51,652 nt of DNA, taken from assembly GCF_003697815.1 (NCBI RefSeq), contig NZ_RDQG01000051.1:1-51652 (forward strand), read 5' to 3'. Under the pieces are notes generated by a model. That model was not told the DNA's origin. It was given only the letters and a program-made list of their open reading frames with translations, and made no database searches. This DNA comes from Halalkalicoccus subterraneus (lineage in GTDB: Archaea > Halobacteriota > Halobacteria > Halobacteriales > Halalkalicoccaceae). Both the position numbers and the translations under genes were made by a program. The number at the start of each line of letters is the position of its first letter. The stretch's first letter is position 1. Shown here piece by piece: positions 38,105-45,835 of the stretch.

Positions 38105-39670
38105 CTACCGGTAGCGTCCCCGACCCTCGATCTCGCGGAGCTGATCGAGAACCGCGGGATCACCGGCCTCGCGGTAGCCGGCCTCGAACGCCTCCCGGCA
38201 GGCCTCGAAGTCGGTGGCCGTCCCCGAGAGCGCCCGCTCGAAGACGTGTACGTCCATCGCGTGGTCCTCGAGTTCGTCGGTGTGATAGCCCAGCCCGAAA
38301 TCGATGCAGTAGAGGCGATCCTCCGAGAGACGGGCGTTTCGCGGCGTCGGATCCCCGTGGACGATCCCGTTTCGGTGTAGCGTCGCGAGGTGAGTGCCGA
38401 GCTCGCGAACCCGCTCGGGGGCGAGGTCGGCGCTCAGGTCCGCCCGTCCCACGTGTTCGAGGACTAGCGTTCCCTCGCGGAGGTCGACGTCCCGGACGAC
38501 CGGCGTCGGAACCCCCGCGCGCCGGGCGAGGCTCGTCAGGCGGGCCTCGCTCGCAGTGCGCTCGTGACGCAAGCGCGCGTCGAGCGTGGGGTGGCGATAC
38601 GCCCTCGCATGCCGGCGTTTTCGGACGACGTCGCCGAGTTCCACGGTCGCCTCCGCACCCGCGACGTCCGACCCGGTCTCTACCCGCTTCGAAACCGATT
38701 CCCCGCCGCGCCAGGTCACCTCGACCTGATCGGGTCGGAAGTCCGAGTCGACTCGCGACTCCTCGATCGCGAGGGTGTCGCCCGCCGCGGCCATTTCGGC
38801 ACCGAGCACGGCGATCATGCCCGCGTTGTCCCGCAGGAATCGCGGTTCGGGCGCGTAGAAGGACGCGTCCCGTGCCTCGCACATCGTTTCGAGCATCCCG
38901 CGTAGCCGGGCGTTCTGCCCGACCCCACCTCCCAAAACGAGTTCGTCGCTACCAGTAAGGGAAAGTGCGCGCTCGCTCACCTCGGTCAGCATCGAAAAGA
39001 CGTTCTCCTGAAGGGCGAAACAGACGTCCTCGATTCGCTCGCCGGAATCGACGGCGTCCTTCGCGGCGCTCATGATCCCCGAAAACGAGAAGTCCATCCC
39101 CTTGACGACGTATGGCAGGTCGACGTACTCGCCGTTTTTCGCACGGTCCTCGACCTTCGGCCCGCCCGGATGGCCCCAGTCGAGGTGACGTGCGAACTTG
39201 TCCAGCGCGTTGCCCACGCCCGTGTCCATCGTCTCGCCGAGCACCTGATACCGGCCGTTGTGATAGCCCAATACGTGGGCGTTCGCGCCACTCGCGTTCA
39301 GACAGACCGGGTTCGCGAACCCCGAGCGATGCCGGCCGATCTCGAGGTGCGCGACCATGTGATTGACGCCGACCAGCGGCACGTCGAGGGATTGGGCGAG
39401 CGCCCGGGCGGCGCTGGCGACGATCCGTAGACAGGGACCCAGTCCGGGCCCCCGCGAGAAGGCGACCGCGTCGACCGACTCGGCCTCCGAGAGCGCCCAC
39501 TCGATTACCTGGGGAATCGCCTCGCTCATGTGTTCTGCGGCCTCGCGAGGGTGAATACCGCCGCTGTCGGGCTGGTAGGGATCGGACTCGATGAAGACCT
39601 CGTCGGTTGCGGAATCGAAGTACGCGGCGCTCGCGGCCCATGCGGTGCCTTCGATCCCGAGAACGCGCAT
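38105..39670 (-). CDS. kae1-bud32: Kae1-Bud32 fusion, KEOPS tRNA t6A synthesis
   Basis: Bifunctional KEOPS core protein of 521 residues for N6-threonylcarbamoyladenosine at A37 of ANN-decoding tRNAs. The Kae1 domain (1-325) starts MRVLGIEGTAWAASAAYFDS and has the metal-binding HMVAHLEIGR plus the GGGVGQNARL block. The Bud32 kinase domain (about 335-521) shows a short glycine-containing loop, catalytic VHGDPTPRN and DFGLGYHT. Fusion of the two is common in euryarchaea. It follows rps27ae and is probably part of one transcript. Confidence 0.95.
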   Translation of the reverse strand: MRVLGIEGTAWAASAAYFDSATDEVFIESDPYQPDSGGIHPREAAEHMSEAIPQVIEWALSEAESVDAVAFSRGPGLGPCLRIVASAARALAQSLDVPLVGVNHMVAHLEIGRHRSGFANPVCLNASGANAHVLGYHNGRYQVLGETMDTGVGNALDKFARHLDWGHPGGPKVEDRAKNGEYVDLPYVVKGMDFSFSGIMSAAKDAVDSGERIEDVCFALQENVFSMLTEVSERALSLTGSDELVLGGGVGQNARLRGMLETMCEARDASFYAPEPRFLRDNAGMIAVLGAEMAAAGDTLAIEESRVDSDFRPDQVEVTWRGGESVSKRVETGSDVAGAEATVELGDVVRKRRHARAYRHPTLDARLRHERTASEARLTSLARRAGVPTPVVRDVDLREGTLVLEHVGRADLSADLAPERVRELGTHLATLHRNGIVHGDPTPRNARLSEDRLYCIDFGLGYHTDELEDHAMDVHVFERALSGTATDFEACREAFEAGYREAGDPAVLDQLREIEGRGRYR

Positions 39671-40188: not shown

Positions 40189-40390
40189 TTTCGACCCGCA
40201 CGCACGTTTTTCGTTGTCGAGTGTCCTCGTGCGGCCGAAGCCCGCACTGCGGGCACCACTCCTTGCTCACGGCGGCGAAGCCGCCGTTCGCATGGTCCGC
40301 GGGATCTTCAGTCCCACACTACTCGCAAAAACCTGTCTGGCGGGACCGGAGGTCCCGCTGACGCTACTGAGCTTTGCTCAGTAAGCGCAC
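40189..40390. other. Hairpin-rich non-coding block between radB and rps24e
   Basis: No convincing ORF. Several perfect inverted repeats are packed together: GGCGGC-GAA-GCCGCC (40271-40285), GCGGGACC-GGA-GGTCCCGC (40340-40358) and TACTGAG-CTTTG-CTCAGTA (40365-40383), plus CCCGC/GCGGG near 40240. The reverse strand after the GGTCCCGC hairpin contains TTTTT (40328 area). The sequence can also be read as fragments with CPQC-like codons on the reverse strand, but stops interrupt it. It may be a small structured RNA, a set of terminators, or an eroded repeat element. Confidence 0.45.
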
Positions 40391-40391
40391 T

Positions 40392-40420
40392 AAAAAACCG
40401 AGCGAGCAAAGCACGCTCGG
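40392..40420 (-). terminator. Intrinsic-type terminator after radB
   Basis: On the reverse strand the radB message would read CCGAGCG-loop-CGCTCGG followed by TTTTTT (complement A-run at 40392-40397). A 7-bp stem with a U-run 10 bases past the radB stop (40431) has the classic form, though archaeal termination relies mainly on the U-run. Confidence 0.6.
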
Positions 40421-40430
40421 TCAGCACAGC

Positions 40431-41132
40431 CTACGTCCCCGCCAGTTCGTCGATCCCCTCAAGACCCGCGTCGGTGATCCGGAACTGGGCGCTCTCGCCG
40501 GCGGGTTTCGAGCGGTGTTTTTCGAGGGTGGCTCGGCGCTTTCCCCCCCGAAACCGGTCGATTCTCACCACTGTGCCGGTCCAGTGTTCGAGCGTGTTAC
40601 CTCCAAGCGGACGGGTCATGTCCGAGTCGGGATCCGAGAAGACCTGATTGGTGATCACGACCGCCAGATCGTGCTTTCGCGCGAGCGCGAGTAGATGAGT
40701 TACCTGGCGGGCGACCGAGCGAAGCGCGTCGCCCTCGCGTTCGTCCTCGGTTCGCTGGAGCCGATAGAACCCCGTTGCGCTGTCGAGGACGATCAGCGAC
40801 ACCTCCCCGGCGAGGTCCTCGACGTCCCGCACCGCCTCCTCCTGTTCCTCGAACGTGTGGGCCTCGCTGACGACGATCCGCGAGGAGAGGGATTCGATGG
40901 GCTCGTCCCCGCGGGCGGAAAGGAGCTGCTCGAATCGATCGGGCGAGAGCCCCTCGGTGTCGATGTAGGCGACCCGTTCGCCGGCCGCAGCGCACTCGAC
41001 GGCGGCACACAGCCCGAAGTTCGTCTTGCCGGCGGCGGGCGGGCCGTACACCTGCGTGACGGTCCCGCGCTCGATCCCGCCGCCCAGCAGGTCGTCGATC
41101 GGGGAACAACCGACGGGGATGGCGTCGTTCAC
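40431..41132 (-). CDS. radB: DNA repair and recombination protein RadB
   Basis: Archaeal RecA/RadA paralogue of 233 residues that assists homologous recombination. It lacks the N-terminal HhH domain of RadA. Walker A is GPPAAGKTN (near 30-38); Walker B lies in SLIVLDSATGFY. The start is a GTG at 41132, giving MNDAIPVGCSPIDDLLGG, the usual RadB opening. It is divergent from a RuvC/RNase H-like gene across 77 bases, and a hairpin/U-run terminator follows its stop. Confidence 0.94.
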   Translation of the reverse strand: MNDAIPVGCSPIDDLLGGGIERGTVTQVYGPPAAGKTNFGLCAAVECAAAGERVAYIDTEGLSPDRFEQLLSARGDEPIESLSSRIVVSEAHTFEEQEEAVRDVEDLAGEVSLIVLDSATGFYRLQRTEDEREGDALRSVARQVTHLLALARKHDLAVVITNQVFSDPDSDMTRPLGGNTLEHWTGTVVRIDRFRGGKRRATLEKHRSKPAGESAQFRITDAGLEGIDELAGT

Positions 41133-41209
41133 GCGGGGAATCGGGTCGACGGGGGCAAAAACGCCCCGGTCCGCGAAAGGGTTTAGCGCTCGCCGGGCGA
41201 ACCCCGGTC

Positions 41210-41935
41210 GTGATCGTCGTCGCCACCGAGGACTTCGAGGTGTACCACGGCGTCGTGGGCGAACTCCGCGAGCGGGGAGTCGAGTTCACGACGATCGAAC
41301 CCGGCGAGGAGCTCCCCGAACACACCCGGGTCGCGATCACCGGGCGAGGCGAGCCGCCAATTGAGGGCATCGAGCGCGTCGAGGCGAACCCCGAGGACCC
41401 CCGGGAGGCGGTCGAAGCCGCGCTGTCGATCCTCCGGGGCGGTGACGGCCGGACGGTGATCGGCGTCGATCCCGGCGATCGACCGGGGATCGTGGTCTGC
41501 TCGGGCGAGACGATCGTCGCGGCCTTTCAGGTGCCGCTGGCGGACGCCCCGGCAATCGTCCGCGAGGAAGTACGCGAGGGGGTCGATCCCCTGGTCCGGA
41601 TCGGCGACGGCGCACGCCTACAAGGTGCGACGATCGTCAACGCCCTCGAGGACGTCCGGGTGGAACTGGTCGACGAAACGGGGACGACCCCCTCGCTTGG
41701 CACCGGCGCACGGGGCATGGGCGACGTGCTCGCGGCGGTCAACATCGCACGGTTGGACGGAGAGGCGATCGAAAGCCGCGAGATCGAACCGACCGACGGG
41801 GAGCTGACGACGATCAAGCGGCGCTCCCGGGAGCGCTCACCGGAGAACCGCGAGATCGACGAGGGACTAGCGAGGCGAGTCGCTCATGGCGAACTCACCG
41901 TCGAGGAAGCCCTAGAAGAACACCGCGAGCGGTAG
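41210..41935 (+). CDS. RuvC/RNase H-like fold protein, unknown function
   Basis: A 241-residue protein from GTG 41210. The first 75 residues form an alpha/beta domain (MIVVATEDFEVYHGVVGELR; VAITGRGEPP). From about residue 83 comes TVIGVDPGDRPGIVVCSGETIVAAFQVP, which matches the first strand of RuvC/YqgF-type RNase H folds (GIDPG...G). Later acidic positions (VRIGDGARL; MGDVLAAVNIA, near 180) are placed like catalytic Asp/Glu. The C-terminal 60 residues are a charged helical region. Its divergent pairing with radB suggests a role in recombination or replication-fork repair; the activity is inference. Confidence 0.7.
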   Translation: MIVVATEDFEVYHGVVGELRERGVEFTTIEPGEELPEHTRVAITGRGEPPIEGIERVEANPEDPREAVEAALSILRGGDGRTVIGVDPGDRPGIVVCSGETIVAAFQVPLADAPAIVREEVREGVDPLVRIGDGARLQGATIVNALEDVRVELVDETGTTPSLGTGARGMGDVLAAVNIARLDGEAIESREIEPTDGELTTIKRRSRERSPENREIDEGLARRVAHGELTVEEALEEHRER

Positions 41936-41936
41936 T

Positions 41937-42083
41937 CTAACGGCCGCAATCAGGACAATCGAGCAGGCCCTGAACGTTGATCGCACGCTCGCCGCAGTCG
42001 GGGCAGGCGGCGCTCTCGAAACGGGTTGGTTCGGCCGGGGTCGATTCCGCGTTCGTCTTCGGAGCAGTGAGTGTCTGCGTCAT
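41937..42083 (-). CDS. 48-residue zinc-ribbon microprotein
   Basis: ATG start at 42083 (M-T-Q-T-L-T-A-P). After a 25-residue Thr/Pro/Glu tail come two CPDCG knuckles at about 31 and 44, the second ending the protein (CPDCGR). The stop abuts the RuvC-like gene (1-base gap) on the other strand. AT-rich upstream sequence (42095-42165) with TATA-like stretches points to an independent, possibly strong promoter. The family is known from genome surveys but not by function. Confidence 0.75.
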   Translation of the reverse strand: MTQTLTAPKTNAESTPAEPTRFESAACPDCGERAINVQGLLDCPDCGR

Positions 42084-42166: not shown

Positions 42167-43414
42167 TTAGAGCTCGCGCCACGCAGACTCGGCGCGGGCC
42201 ATCACCTCCCGGATCGTCGCACCCGTCTCGCGGGCGACGGCTGCCGCGTCGTCGTACTCCGGGCTAGCGTCGTAAACCTCTCCAGAGTCGTCGCTCGCGA
42301 TCTTGATCGCGATCCCGTAGTCCTCACCGTCGACCGCGATGGAGACGGTCTCGATCTCGCGGCCCGCGACCCAGCGGTGCGTGGCGGGCGTCGCGCGCAC
42401 CCCCAGCGTCCCGGTCTCCGCCGCGAGTTTCCGGGCGACCGCTCGGGCGTCCTCCGGGCGACAGATCACCTTCACGAGGTGGCCGGGCCGGGACTTCTTC
42501 ATCGTCGCCGGCAGGACGGTCACGTCACGAGCACCCGCCCCCGCGAGGGTGTCTTGGAGTCCGCCGAGGATCTCAGGGGGGATGTCGTCGACGTTGGTCT
42601 CGAGGACCGTGATCCCCTCGTGGCTGGCGTGGTTCCCGTGGGCGTCTCCGACGATCGCGCGCAGGACGTTCGGGTGCCCGTCCAGATCTCTGTCGCCGGC
42701 ACCGTAGCCCGAACCCTCGACGCGCAGGTCGGGAAGCGTTTCGCATCCCTCGGCGACGACCGCGAGGATCGCGGCGCCGGTCGGGGTCAGCAGTTCGGCC
42801 TCGACGGGACCGCCGCGGATCGACCAGTCCGCTTTTTCGGCGACCTTCACGACCGCGGGACCCGGCACCGGGTAGGTGCCGTGGCTCATCTCTACCACAC
42901 CGCCGCCGGCCGACAGCGGCGTCGTGACCACTCGATCCGGATCGAGATCCGCGAGGAGGAGAACGGCGCCGACCACGTCCGCAATGGCGTCGTCCGCCCC
43001 CACCTCGTGGAAGTGGATCGAGTCGAGGTCTGCGCCGTGGACGCTGGCTTCCGCCTCCCCGAGGGTCTCGAAGATCGCGAGCGCGTCGGCCTCGACCTCG
43101 GAGGCGAGTCCCATCGATTCGACGAGCTCGCACACTTCGCGGTACGAGCGGTGTGGGCCCGTCCCCTCGGCGTGTGTACGCCCCTGATCGTGCTCTCCGT
43201 GCCGGTCGTGTCCCGGGTCCGAACGGTCGTCGCGGACCACGTCCACACCCGTCGCCCGGATGTCGTTTTTCATCACGTCATCTATCCCGTAGCGGACGTC
43301 GAGCGTCGACTCGACCGGCCCGAGAACGTCCGGATCCGCGCCGGCGGCCAGCAGCGCCCCCACGATCATGTCGCCGCTCGCACCGGTCCGGCCGTCGAAC
43401 GCAAGCGTGCTCAT
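42167..43414 (-). CDS. larC: Nickel-pincer cofactor biosynthesis protein LarC
   Basis: Inserts nickel into the pincer nucleotide cofactor of lactate racemase-type enzymes, by analogy with Lactiplantibacillus LarC. It has 415 residues, starting [21 protein letters not shown] histidine-rich insert lies near residues 66-90 (His at 69, 72, 75, 81 and 88). Conserved blocks include [22 protein letters not shown] and TMKKSRPGH. It is encoded as one intact frame, whereas the bacterial gene is split by a programmed frameshift. No larB, larE or larA is in this window. Confidence 0.93.
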
Positions 43415-43609
43415 ACCGGAGTCTCGCGCTCGCGGGCAAAAGGTCACACCATCCGCCGCCTCCCGACCCGTCCAAGCAGTAGTGTTTTGTACCCCGTCGT
43501 TCGTAGCATACTATGCGAAGAACTACCACACAACCGTGTCGGAAGCGGCCGCCAGCACAAGACCTATCGGGGCCGCTGCCCGACACTCCCTCATCCCCGC
43601 AGCCCCATC

Positions 43610-45835
43610 ATGAACGAAGTACAACTCGAGGTGGCGAAAGCCTACCCGAACGACTCGGGAAGGGGCATCGCCCGCCTCGACCCGGATACGCTGTTGCACC
43701 TGAAGCTGAGTCCCGGAGACATCATCGAGATCGAAGGCGGCGACACGACCGCCGCGAAGGTCTGGCGCGCCGACCGCCAGGACTGGAACACCGACACCGT
43801 CAGGATCGACGGGTTCACCCGCCAGAACGCCGACGTCGGTATCGGCGAGCGCGTCACCATCCGCAAGGCCGACGCGACGAAGGCCGAGAAGCTGGTGTTG
43901 GCCCCGCCCGAGGAGGCGTCGGTCCAGTTCGGTTCGGACGCCGCCGGCATGGTCAAACGTCAGATCCTCAAGCGCCCGGTCGTCGAGCGCGACATCGTCC
44001 CCGTGATGTCGAGCACGAACCATCCCTTCATGCGCTCGCCCGGCCAGGCGATTCCTCTCATCGCGGTCGAAACCGAGCCCGAGGGCGTCTGTCTGATCAC
44101 CGAGGACACCGACGTCGAACTGCGAGAAGAGCCCATTTCCGGCTTCGAGAAGGCCGGCTCGGGGATCACCTACGAGGACATCGGCGGCCTCCAGAACGAG
44201 ATCCAGCGTGTGCGAGAAATGGTCGAACTGCCGATGAAACACCCCCAGATCTTCAAGAAGCTGGGGATCGAGCCGCCCCAGGGGGTCCTTCTCCATGGTC
44301 CGCCAGGGACGGGTAAAACGCTGCTCGCGAAGGCCGTCGCCAACGAGACCAGCGCGAGCTTCTTCTCGATCGCCGGCCCCGAGATCATCTCGAAGTACTA
44401 CGGGGAGAGCGAACAACAGTTGCGCGAGATCTTCGAGGACGCAAGCGAGGAGTCGCCCTCGATCATCTTCATCGACGAGCTCGACTCGATCGCGCCGAAA
44501 CGCGAGGACGTCACCGGTGAGGTCGAGCGCCGGGTGGTCGCCCAACTGCTGACGATGATGGACGGCCTCGAATCCCGTGGCCAGGTCATCGTCATCGCCG
44601 CGACCAACCGGGTCGACAGCGTGGATCCGGCTCTCAGGCGACCGGGCCGGTTCGACCGGGAGATCTCGATCGACGTGCCCGACGAAACAGGGAGAGAGGA
44701 GATCCTCCAGATCCACACGCGTGGAATGCCGCTCTCGGACGACGTGAGCCTCTCGGAGCTCGCCGACGACACCCACGGCTTCGTAGGCGCGGACGTCGAG
44801 AGCCTGACCAAGGAGGCCGCGATGCGCGCGCTGCGGCGCTACCTCCCGGAGATAAATCTGGACGAGGAGGAGGTGCCCCCCGAGCTGATCGACCGGATGA
44901 TCGTCAAACGCGGGGACTTCCGCGGGGCGCTAGGCGAGGTCGAGCCGAGCGCGATGCGCGAGGTGCTGGTCGAACTCCCGAAGATCACGTGGGACGACGT
45001 TGGCGGGCTCGAGGACGCCATCGGCGACATCAAGGAGAGCGTCGAGTGGCCCCTGACCAATCCCGACCGCTTCGACCGGCTGGGAATCGATCCGCCGGCG
45101 GGCGTTCTCCTCTACGGCCCGCCGGGCACGGGGAAAACGCTGATGGCGAAGGCGGTCGCCAACGAGACCAACGCCAACTTCATCTCGATCCGCGGGCCCC
45201 AGCTACTCAGCAAGTGGGTCGGCGAATCGGAGAAGGCGATCCGGCAGACGTTCCGGAAGGCCCGACAGGTCTCTCCCACGGTGATCTTCTTCGACGAGCT
45301 CGACAGTCTCGCGCCCGCACGAGGCGGAGAGGTCGGTTCGAACGTCTCCGAGCGGGTGGTCAACCAGCTCCTGACGGAGCTCGACGGGCTCGAGGAGATG
45401 GAGAACGTGATGGTGATCGCCGCGACCAACAGGCCGGACATGATCGATCCCGCGTTGATCCGCTCGGGTCGGTTCGACCGACTCGTGATGGTCGGCCAGC
45501 CCGGTGAGGAGGGGAGAAAGGAGATCCTGCGGATCCACACCGACCCGATCCCGTTGGCCGCGGACGTGAGTCTGAACGAACTCGCGGAGATCACCGACGG
45601 GTTCGTCGGCAGCGATCTCGCGAGCATCGCCCGCGAGGCCGCGATGACGGCCCTTCGCGAGGACAGCGACGCCGACGTCGTCGAGATGCGCCACTTCCGC
45701 GGGGCGATGGAGTCGGTTCGGCCCACGATCACCGACGACATCCTCGACTACTACGAACAGATCAAGGACGAGTTCGCCGGCGGCACCGCGGAACCCGGCC
45801 GGAGCAGACAGGGCGGTCGGATCGGCTTCCAATAA
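43610..45835 (+). CDS. cdc48: Cdc48-family two-ring AAA ATPase
   Basis: Hexameric unfoldase/segregase (VAT/p97 family), 741 residues. The N-terminal Cdc48_N/double-psi barrel (1-180) opens [20 protein letters not shown]1 has Walker A GPPGTGKT near 230 and Walker [11 protein letters not shown]2 repeats GPPGTGKT near 503 and VIFFDELDS. The C-terminal tail is short. The start is the ATG at 43610; an open frame that extends much further upstream is a shadow over larC. With PAN (1-888) the window carries two proteasome-linked unfoldases. Confidence 0.96.

Follow-up and report, generated by a model that had tools for sequence, protein, structure and literature searches.

YqgF-type enzymes are regarded as bacterial, and RadB is a proposed recombination mediator of the euryarchaea whose partners are poorly known. 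For the YqgF protein of D. radiodurans, the available text of PMC9601230 describes an Mn-dependent RNase without junction-resolving activity, in which the substitution D22A impaired the RNase activity and the substitutions E106A and D122A blocked it. From structure, the three-acid set of YqgF was doubted as a functional site (PMC3985635, available text), and in the same work Majorek et al. placed DUF460 (PF04312), a family of RNase H-like proteins from archaea, near YqgF, Tex and Spt6. RadB has been reported to act in recombination in Haloferax volcanii (PMC5480776). No title or abstract that we found in the open-access literature describes a RadB-linked RuvC/YqgF protein or the family of YqgF-like proteins analysed here.

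The window, i.e., the whole stretch of 51,652 nucleotides of Halalkalicoccus subterraneus DNA that was analysed, contains an ORF at 41210..41935 on the forward strand that starts with GTG and encodes a protein of 241 aa, with GVDPGDRPGIVVC at residues 85-97. The protein start GTGATCGTCGTCGC is kept in four loci of the same genus. In comparison with three same-genus relatives, the differences at codon positions 1/2/3 numbered 19/25/80, 28/26/99, and 26/22/86; since the substitutions fall mostly at the third codon position, we concluded that this ORF is translated and subject to purifying selection. The reading frame called in an earlier note on this DNA was thus confirmed as a real gene, and its opposite-strand neighbor is indeed radB (40431..41132, reverse strand), encoding a RecA/Rad51-family recombination mediator recognized by the NCBIfam RadB equivalogs (E 2.3e-126 and 1.7e-78). 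Pfam and NCBIfam searches gave no model for the 241-aa protein, and a Pfam Big_3_3 match at E 0.14 was treated as noise. The ortholog in Natronorubrum bangense, also beside radB, carries the RefSeq label "hypothetical protein". Between the nuclease-like gene and the LarC gene of the window, a protein of 48 aa that has two zinc-finger knuckles of the CPxCG type is encoded at 41937-42083 on the reverse strand; it was found by tblastn in 2 of the 35 named loci.

The structure of the 241-aa protein was predicted by AlphaFold2 (AF2) with 26 Halobacteria sequences (pLDDT 84.9). The model has an RNase H arrangement across residues 82-181, its elements (E82-87, E93-98, E101-107, H110-123, E128-132, H136-145, E151-154, and H170-181) succeeding one another as in the RNase H core (strands 1 to 3, a helix, strand 4, a second helix, strand 5, and the final helix). 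The RNase H-like domain with this RuvC/YqgF order was delimited by AF2 and VIA-align to residues 80-184 (41447..41761, forward strand). VIA-align, in which rows up to 1 Z apart are taken as tied, gave Tex (3bzk; Z 11.2, rmsd 3.5, 104 aligned residues), D. radiodurans YqgF (7w89; Z 10.9, rmsd 2.7, 101 aligned, 26% identity), M. tuberculosis RuvX (7ess; Z 10.4, rmsd 2.7, 104 aligned), and T. thermophilus RuvC (4ld0; Z 10.1, rmsd 3.9, 107 aligned), together with Spt6 at about Z 9-10 and the fowlpox and canarypox resolvases at Z 9.0-9.4. Also ranked among the top rows were IS621-type recombinases and a terminase nuclease, enzymes that likewise have RuvC-like nuclease domains. In profile comparison by hhalign, the family reached E 7e-4 against an 11-sequence YqgF set and E 4.6e-7 against 30 DUF460 domains; for both sets none of 100 column shuffles scored as well and reversed profiles scored worse. 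Foldseek alone returned no match at E <= 0.001 (the best, at 3.5e-3, was a chain of a Tsa complex), and its ranking (TsaB, Ppx, integrases; all E > 1e-3) was set aside for VIA-align and the profile comparison. PDB sequence searches with the protein found no RNase H protein; the hits to 3d7j, 8g9j, and ankyrin-repeat proteins were considered chance matches, the last because an ETGTTP-like stretch recurs in them, and such single stretches were all non-significant. The AF2 element order, the VIA-align scores of Z 9-11 to YqgF, Tex, and RuvC and the profile comparison bear out the RuvC/YqgF-type fold read from the letters in the earlier note, and we are nearly certain that the protein has an RNase H fold of this group.

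Two further parts flank the RNase H-like domain. Residues 1-78 (41210..41443, forward strand; pLDDT 90.9 when modelled by AF2 as an isolated domain) form a small Rossmann-like alpha/beta domain with T6 and F9 conserved in 81/81 sequences and D8 in 80/81. Its best structural matches, PurE (Z 8.7) and receiver and PTS IIB domains (Z 7-8), are of a widespread arrangement, and no function was drawn from these common Rossmann-type folds. Homology of this domain to the part of DUF460 that precedes the RNase H domain was not seen by hhalign (second hit E 0.16). The C-terminal tail, residues 194-241 (41789..41932, forward strand), is helical (196-209, 218-225, and 231-240) and contains E198 and R207, both invariant in 81/81 sequences.

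We examined the candidate active site in a conservation set of 81 sequences (61 from Halobacteria and 20 from other lineages; 77 distinct), in which D87, E156, and D172 never vary (81/81). D87 (41468..41470, forward strand), the first catalytic-type aspartate at the end of strand 1, corresponds to D22 of D. radiodurans YqgF by hhalign and VIA-align. E156 (41675..41677, forward strand) follows strand 5 directly in the motif VDExxTTP and was paired by hhalign with E106 in DERFTT of the same protein. D172 (41723..41725, forward strand), located where the last core helix starts, corresponds to D122 by both methods. On the YqgF side, the hhalign partners are thus the Asp of strand 1, the DERxTT Glu, and the last-helix Asp. 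The VIA-align end points on 7w89 (79 on 14, 183 on 133) agree with D87 = D22 and, if the alignment is ungapped there, with E156 = E106 and D172 = D122. D22 and E106 were numbered on the PDB sequence, and D122 is the position given in the available text of PMC9601230. The GVDPG segment that the earlier note had taken for the first RuvC/YqgF strand therefore stands (D87 in 81/81, at the end of AF2 strand 1, and 0/100 shuffles as good), and its expectation of plausibly placed later acids was right for E156 and D172, each in 81/81. As to a metal site, the alignments give the arrangement expected of one, and metal binding by these acids is a prediction.

The layout of the acids is that of YqgF, with the second acid on strand 5; the second acid of RuvC is on strand 4. 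At that strand-4 position, where RuvC and DUF460 have an acid, D133 occurs in 59/61 Halobacteria and is His, Asn, Ser, or Arg in 20/20 sequences from elsewhere; D133 is thus not a family-wide catalytic acid. The last helix (GDVLAAVNIA) contains D172 alone, with neither a second acid nor a His in the helix consensus. N178, E152, E198, R136, and R207 are also invariant in the 81 sequences. The 241-aa protein is predicted, with good confidence, to be an active nuclease.

At the level of sequence families, PF04312 (DUF460) was reached weakly by 24/28 family members (best E 3.6e-4). Its curated cut-off is 28 bits, and the scores of five family members lay at 19-22 bits. A separate DUF460 gene is present in the window's genome (G000:C5:36406-36801, L116; 664-aa open frame), and DUF460 was detected in 115 of 120 genomes across the phylum. 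PF03652, the YqgF/RuvX model, matched 0/28 family members at E <= 1 and nothing in the window's genome, so that no other YqgF is present there.

The YqgF-like gene is encoded in 119/145 Halobacteria genomes. In a sample of 294 genomes drawn across Halobacteriota, strong matches (E 2e-34 or better) were found in 62 genomes, 39 from Halobacteria and 23 from six other families, and another 19 had weak matches alone (E 4e-4 to 0.01); several of the weak matches fall on the same place as DUF460 genes, and the same overlap is seen in the genome of the window. Many Halobacteriota of this sample lack the YqgF-like gene. In one draft genome it was seen in three pieces with a stop (G163:C14:26816-27547). 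Searches of viral contigs and phages found no relative of the protein, and a viral origin was rejected on that ground. The 241-aa protein belongs to an unnamed, old family of Halobacteria and several other Halobacteriota lineages.

The pairing with radB, which the earlier note had seen in this one window, was borne out and is wider than the window alone could show. Of the 119 Halobacteria genomes that encode the protein, 103 have radB head-to-head within 5 kb (71 at <300 bp, 21 at 300-1500 bp, and 11 at 1.5-5 kb); in the rest radB is >5 kb away (12), on another contig (3), or not found (1). In the other lineages, 14/20 fetched loci have radB as the adjacent, divergent gene, and with G217 the count is 15/23 genomes. 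These comprise all gene carriers of families f16 (1), f18 (4), and f24 (4) and 6/7 of f11, the seventh being the fragmented G163 copy; radB was not near the gene in f21 (0/5) or f33 (0/2). In the window the start codons of the two genes are separated by 77 bp (41133..41209), of which a core of ~30 bp is nearly identical in four same-genus loci; this common intergenic region probably holds two back-to-back promoters. The converse does not hold, as radB occurs without a match to the YqgF-like gene in 26/145 Halobacteria genomes and likewise in most of the phylum (radB is present in 283/294 sampled genomes). In Natronorubrum bangense the CBS-radB-nuclease stretch is found twice in the same order, once in the chromosome and once in an 828-kb plasmid record (L045 and L046). 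At four f21 loci (L111, L112, L113, and L115) the gene is 317-334 bp downstream of FEN1 on the same strand and not near radB; the FEN1 identity was tested for L113 (Pfam XPG domains). Because of this distance, and because the arrangement is limited to one family, FEN1 was not taken as evidence.

Beyond the gene, the conserved neighbors in the window are a LarC-type nickel insertion protein (42167..43447, reverse strand; PF01969, E 5.9e-126) and a Cdc48-type AAA ATPase (43610..45835, forward strand; Pfam CDC48_N, CDC48_2, and two AAA domains). LarC is on the same side of the gene in 23/35 named loci, and relatives recur in 11/20 distant loci; for Cdc48 the counts are 22/35 and 12/20. The S24e and KEOPS genes on the other side of radB were found in only one of the 35 named loci (L031) and in none of the 20 distant ones. 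Since LarC and Cdc48 recur in the distant loci and S24e/KEOPS do not, the radB-gene-LarC-Cdc48 order is old. It is no proof of a common function because radB often occurs without the gene, and with LarC and Cdc48 in the same block the neighborhood may be merely old synteny. On the S24e/KEOPS side, a 521-aa TsaD/Kae1-type protein whose C-terminal part is kinase-like (38105-39670, reverse strand) is probably the Kae1-Bud32 fusion of KEOPS, and the S24e-radB spacer (40200-40430) looks by eye rich in short inverted repeats and is perhaps a transposon remnant.

In Haloferax (L051 and L064) the order is CBS, radB, YqgF-like gene, LarC, and Cdc48. Published numbers are HVO_2384 for the CBS protein, HVO_2383 for RadB, and HVO_2380 for Cdc48a; together with the gene order they indicate that the ortholog should be HVO_2382, which we presume to be the Haloferax volcanii member of the family. 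According to a personal communication cited in PMC3820547, HVO_2384 binds RadA and RadB. In the available text of PMC10470531, HVO_2382 is named among the uncharacterized proteins of interest that entered a neighborhood analysis with Cdc48a; it is the one open-access paper found to name it, and its synteny table (Table S2, Data Set S2) may already display the RadB neighborhood.

We read the protein as an active, metal-dependent nuclease of YqgF type that is coupled to RadB and serves recombination or the metabolism of RNA/DNA hybrids, and consider this reading slightly on the probable side. D87, E156, and D172 would hold a divalent metal, and the site would cut phosphodiester bonds in some structured nucleic acid, with the N-terminal domain and the helical tail providing substrate or partner binding. 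The protein may work in RadB's process, as the conserved head-to-head arrangement suggests; its task there would be to trim or remove RNA/DNA hybrids, flaps, or branched intermediates at the sites of RadB-assisted RadA loading. Whether it acts in recombination or repair we judge to be evenly balanced. In the genome it is an old partner of radB, and it is probably a partner in function as well.

The strongest alternative, which we consider unlikely, is an RNA-processing enzyme, i.e., an archaeal YqgF counterpart acting on pre-rRNA or as a general RNase, next to radB by inherited synteny and without shared function. Both the acid layout and the structural neighbors point to YqgF and Tex, the D. 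radiodurans enzyme with the same acids is an RNase without resolvase activity in the available text of PMC9601230, LarC and Cdc48 in the block are not recombination genes, and the window's genome, in which PF03652 has no match, has no other YqgF. However, radB is commoner in the block than LarC or Cdc48 (29, 23, and 22 of 35 named loci, counts that are limited by the 5-kb flanks), PF03652 matches none of the 28 members, and the absence of the gene from many Halobacteriota is unlike a core rRNA enzyme.

A Holliday junction resolvase acting with RadA/RadB as an alternative to Hjc and Hef is more doubtful. It would agree with the RuvC-type fold shared with TtRuvC and the poxvirus resolvases, with a gene divergent from a recombination mediator, and with the junction cutting reported for the M. 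tuberculosis and H. pylori YqgF proteins (PMC9601230, available text); in addition, of the 23 genomes that carry the gene outside Halobacteria, two match Hjc weakly (E 2.6e-5 and 2.4e-4) and none strongly. Most non-Halobacteria families without the gene also lack a strong Hjc, however, and the exclusion counted by family, 0/6 vs. 4/19, is not significant (hypergeometric p 0.31, by hand), so that replacement of Hjc is not supported. The genome of the window encodes Hjc (PF01870), as do all 53 Halobacteria in the phylum sample; Hjc was also present in 20/20 Halobacteria genomes that have the gene and in 13/13 that lack it. The strand-4 acid and second helix acid of RuvC are missing. As radB without the gene is common and Hjc is kept in Halobacteria, the protein is not their standard resolvase. 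The suggestion in the earlier note of a stand-in for Hjc/Hje was not upheld: the acid layout is that of YqgF and not of RuvC, and the D. radiodurans enzyme with the same three residues does not resolve junctions in the available account. Junction cleavage as the main role is at best unlikely. In the phylum sample, strong Hjc matches were limited to Halobacteria and 4/25 other families (f14, f17, f32, and f34), and a clear Hjc was not seen in many Halobacteriota, nor in the control Methanosarcina acetivorans.

A catalytically dead RNase H fold that would provide a platform for binding, as the YqgF-type domain does in Tex/Spt6, is the least probable alternative: the nearest structures include Tex and Spt6 and there are three acids only, but these are invariant in 81/81 sequences across lineages with about 40% identity, and Tex has no third acid (PMC3985635, available text).

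A conserved, unnamed nuclease candidate that shares an intergenic region with radB offers a genetically tractable handle on RadB partners and hints at an unstudied component of DNA or RNA repair in archaea. If the preferred reading of a RadB-coupled nuclease is true, YqgF-type enzymes also occur and act in Archaea. Its boldest form, put forward as speculation that we consider unlikely, is an undescribed archaeal recombination nuclease of YqgF type that would work with RadB on branched or RNA-containing intermediates, would predate the split of Halobacteria from several Halobacteriota lineages, and would possibly cut junctions where Hjc is unrecognizable.

Compared with the known systems, the protein shares with RuvC the fold and the first aspartate (TtRuvC Z 10.1) but lacks a family-wide acid where strand 4 ends, carries a single last-helix acid instead of two, and has extra domains. 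The Tex/Spt6 YqgF-type domain gave the highest structural score (Z 11.2) and likewise has its second acid on strand 5, whereas Tex is a large multi-domain protein without the third acid (PMC3985635, available text) that is invariant here. DUF460/COG2433 (PF04312) is the closest at the sequence level, the (V/I)GIDPG strand being common to both; it differs in open frames of mostly about 610-700 aa, vs. 241 aa here, and in its acid on strand 4 (PMC3985635, available text). YqgF/RuvX (PF03652) has in common with it the RNase H fold, the D of strand 1, the E after strand 5 (DExxTT), and the D of the last helix, but is a single domain of about 138 aa, in contrast to 241 aa with an N-terminal domain and a helical tail in a halobacterial protein that is archaeal, has no PF03652 match, and is encoded beside radB. 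We concluded that by the features tested the 241-aa protein falls outside PF03652, RuvC, and DUF460, and that as far as the predicted site goes it would resemble YqgF in its mode of action.
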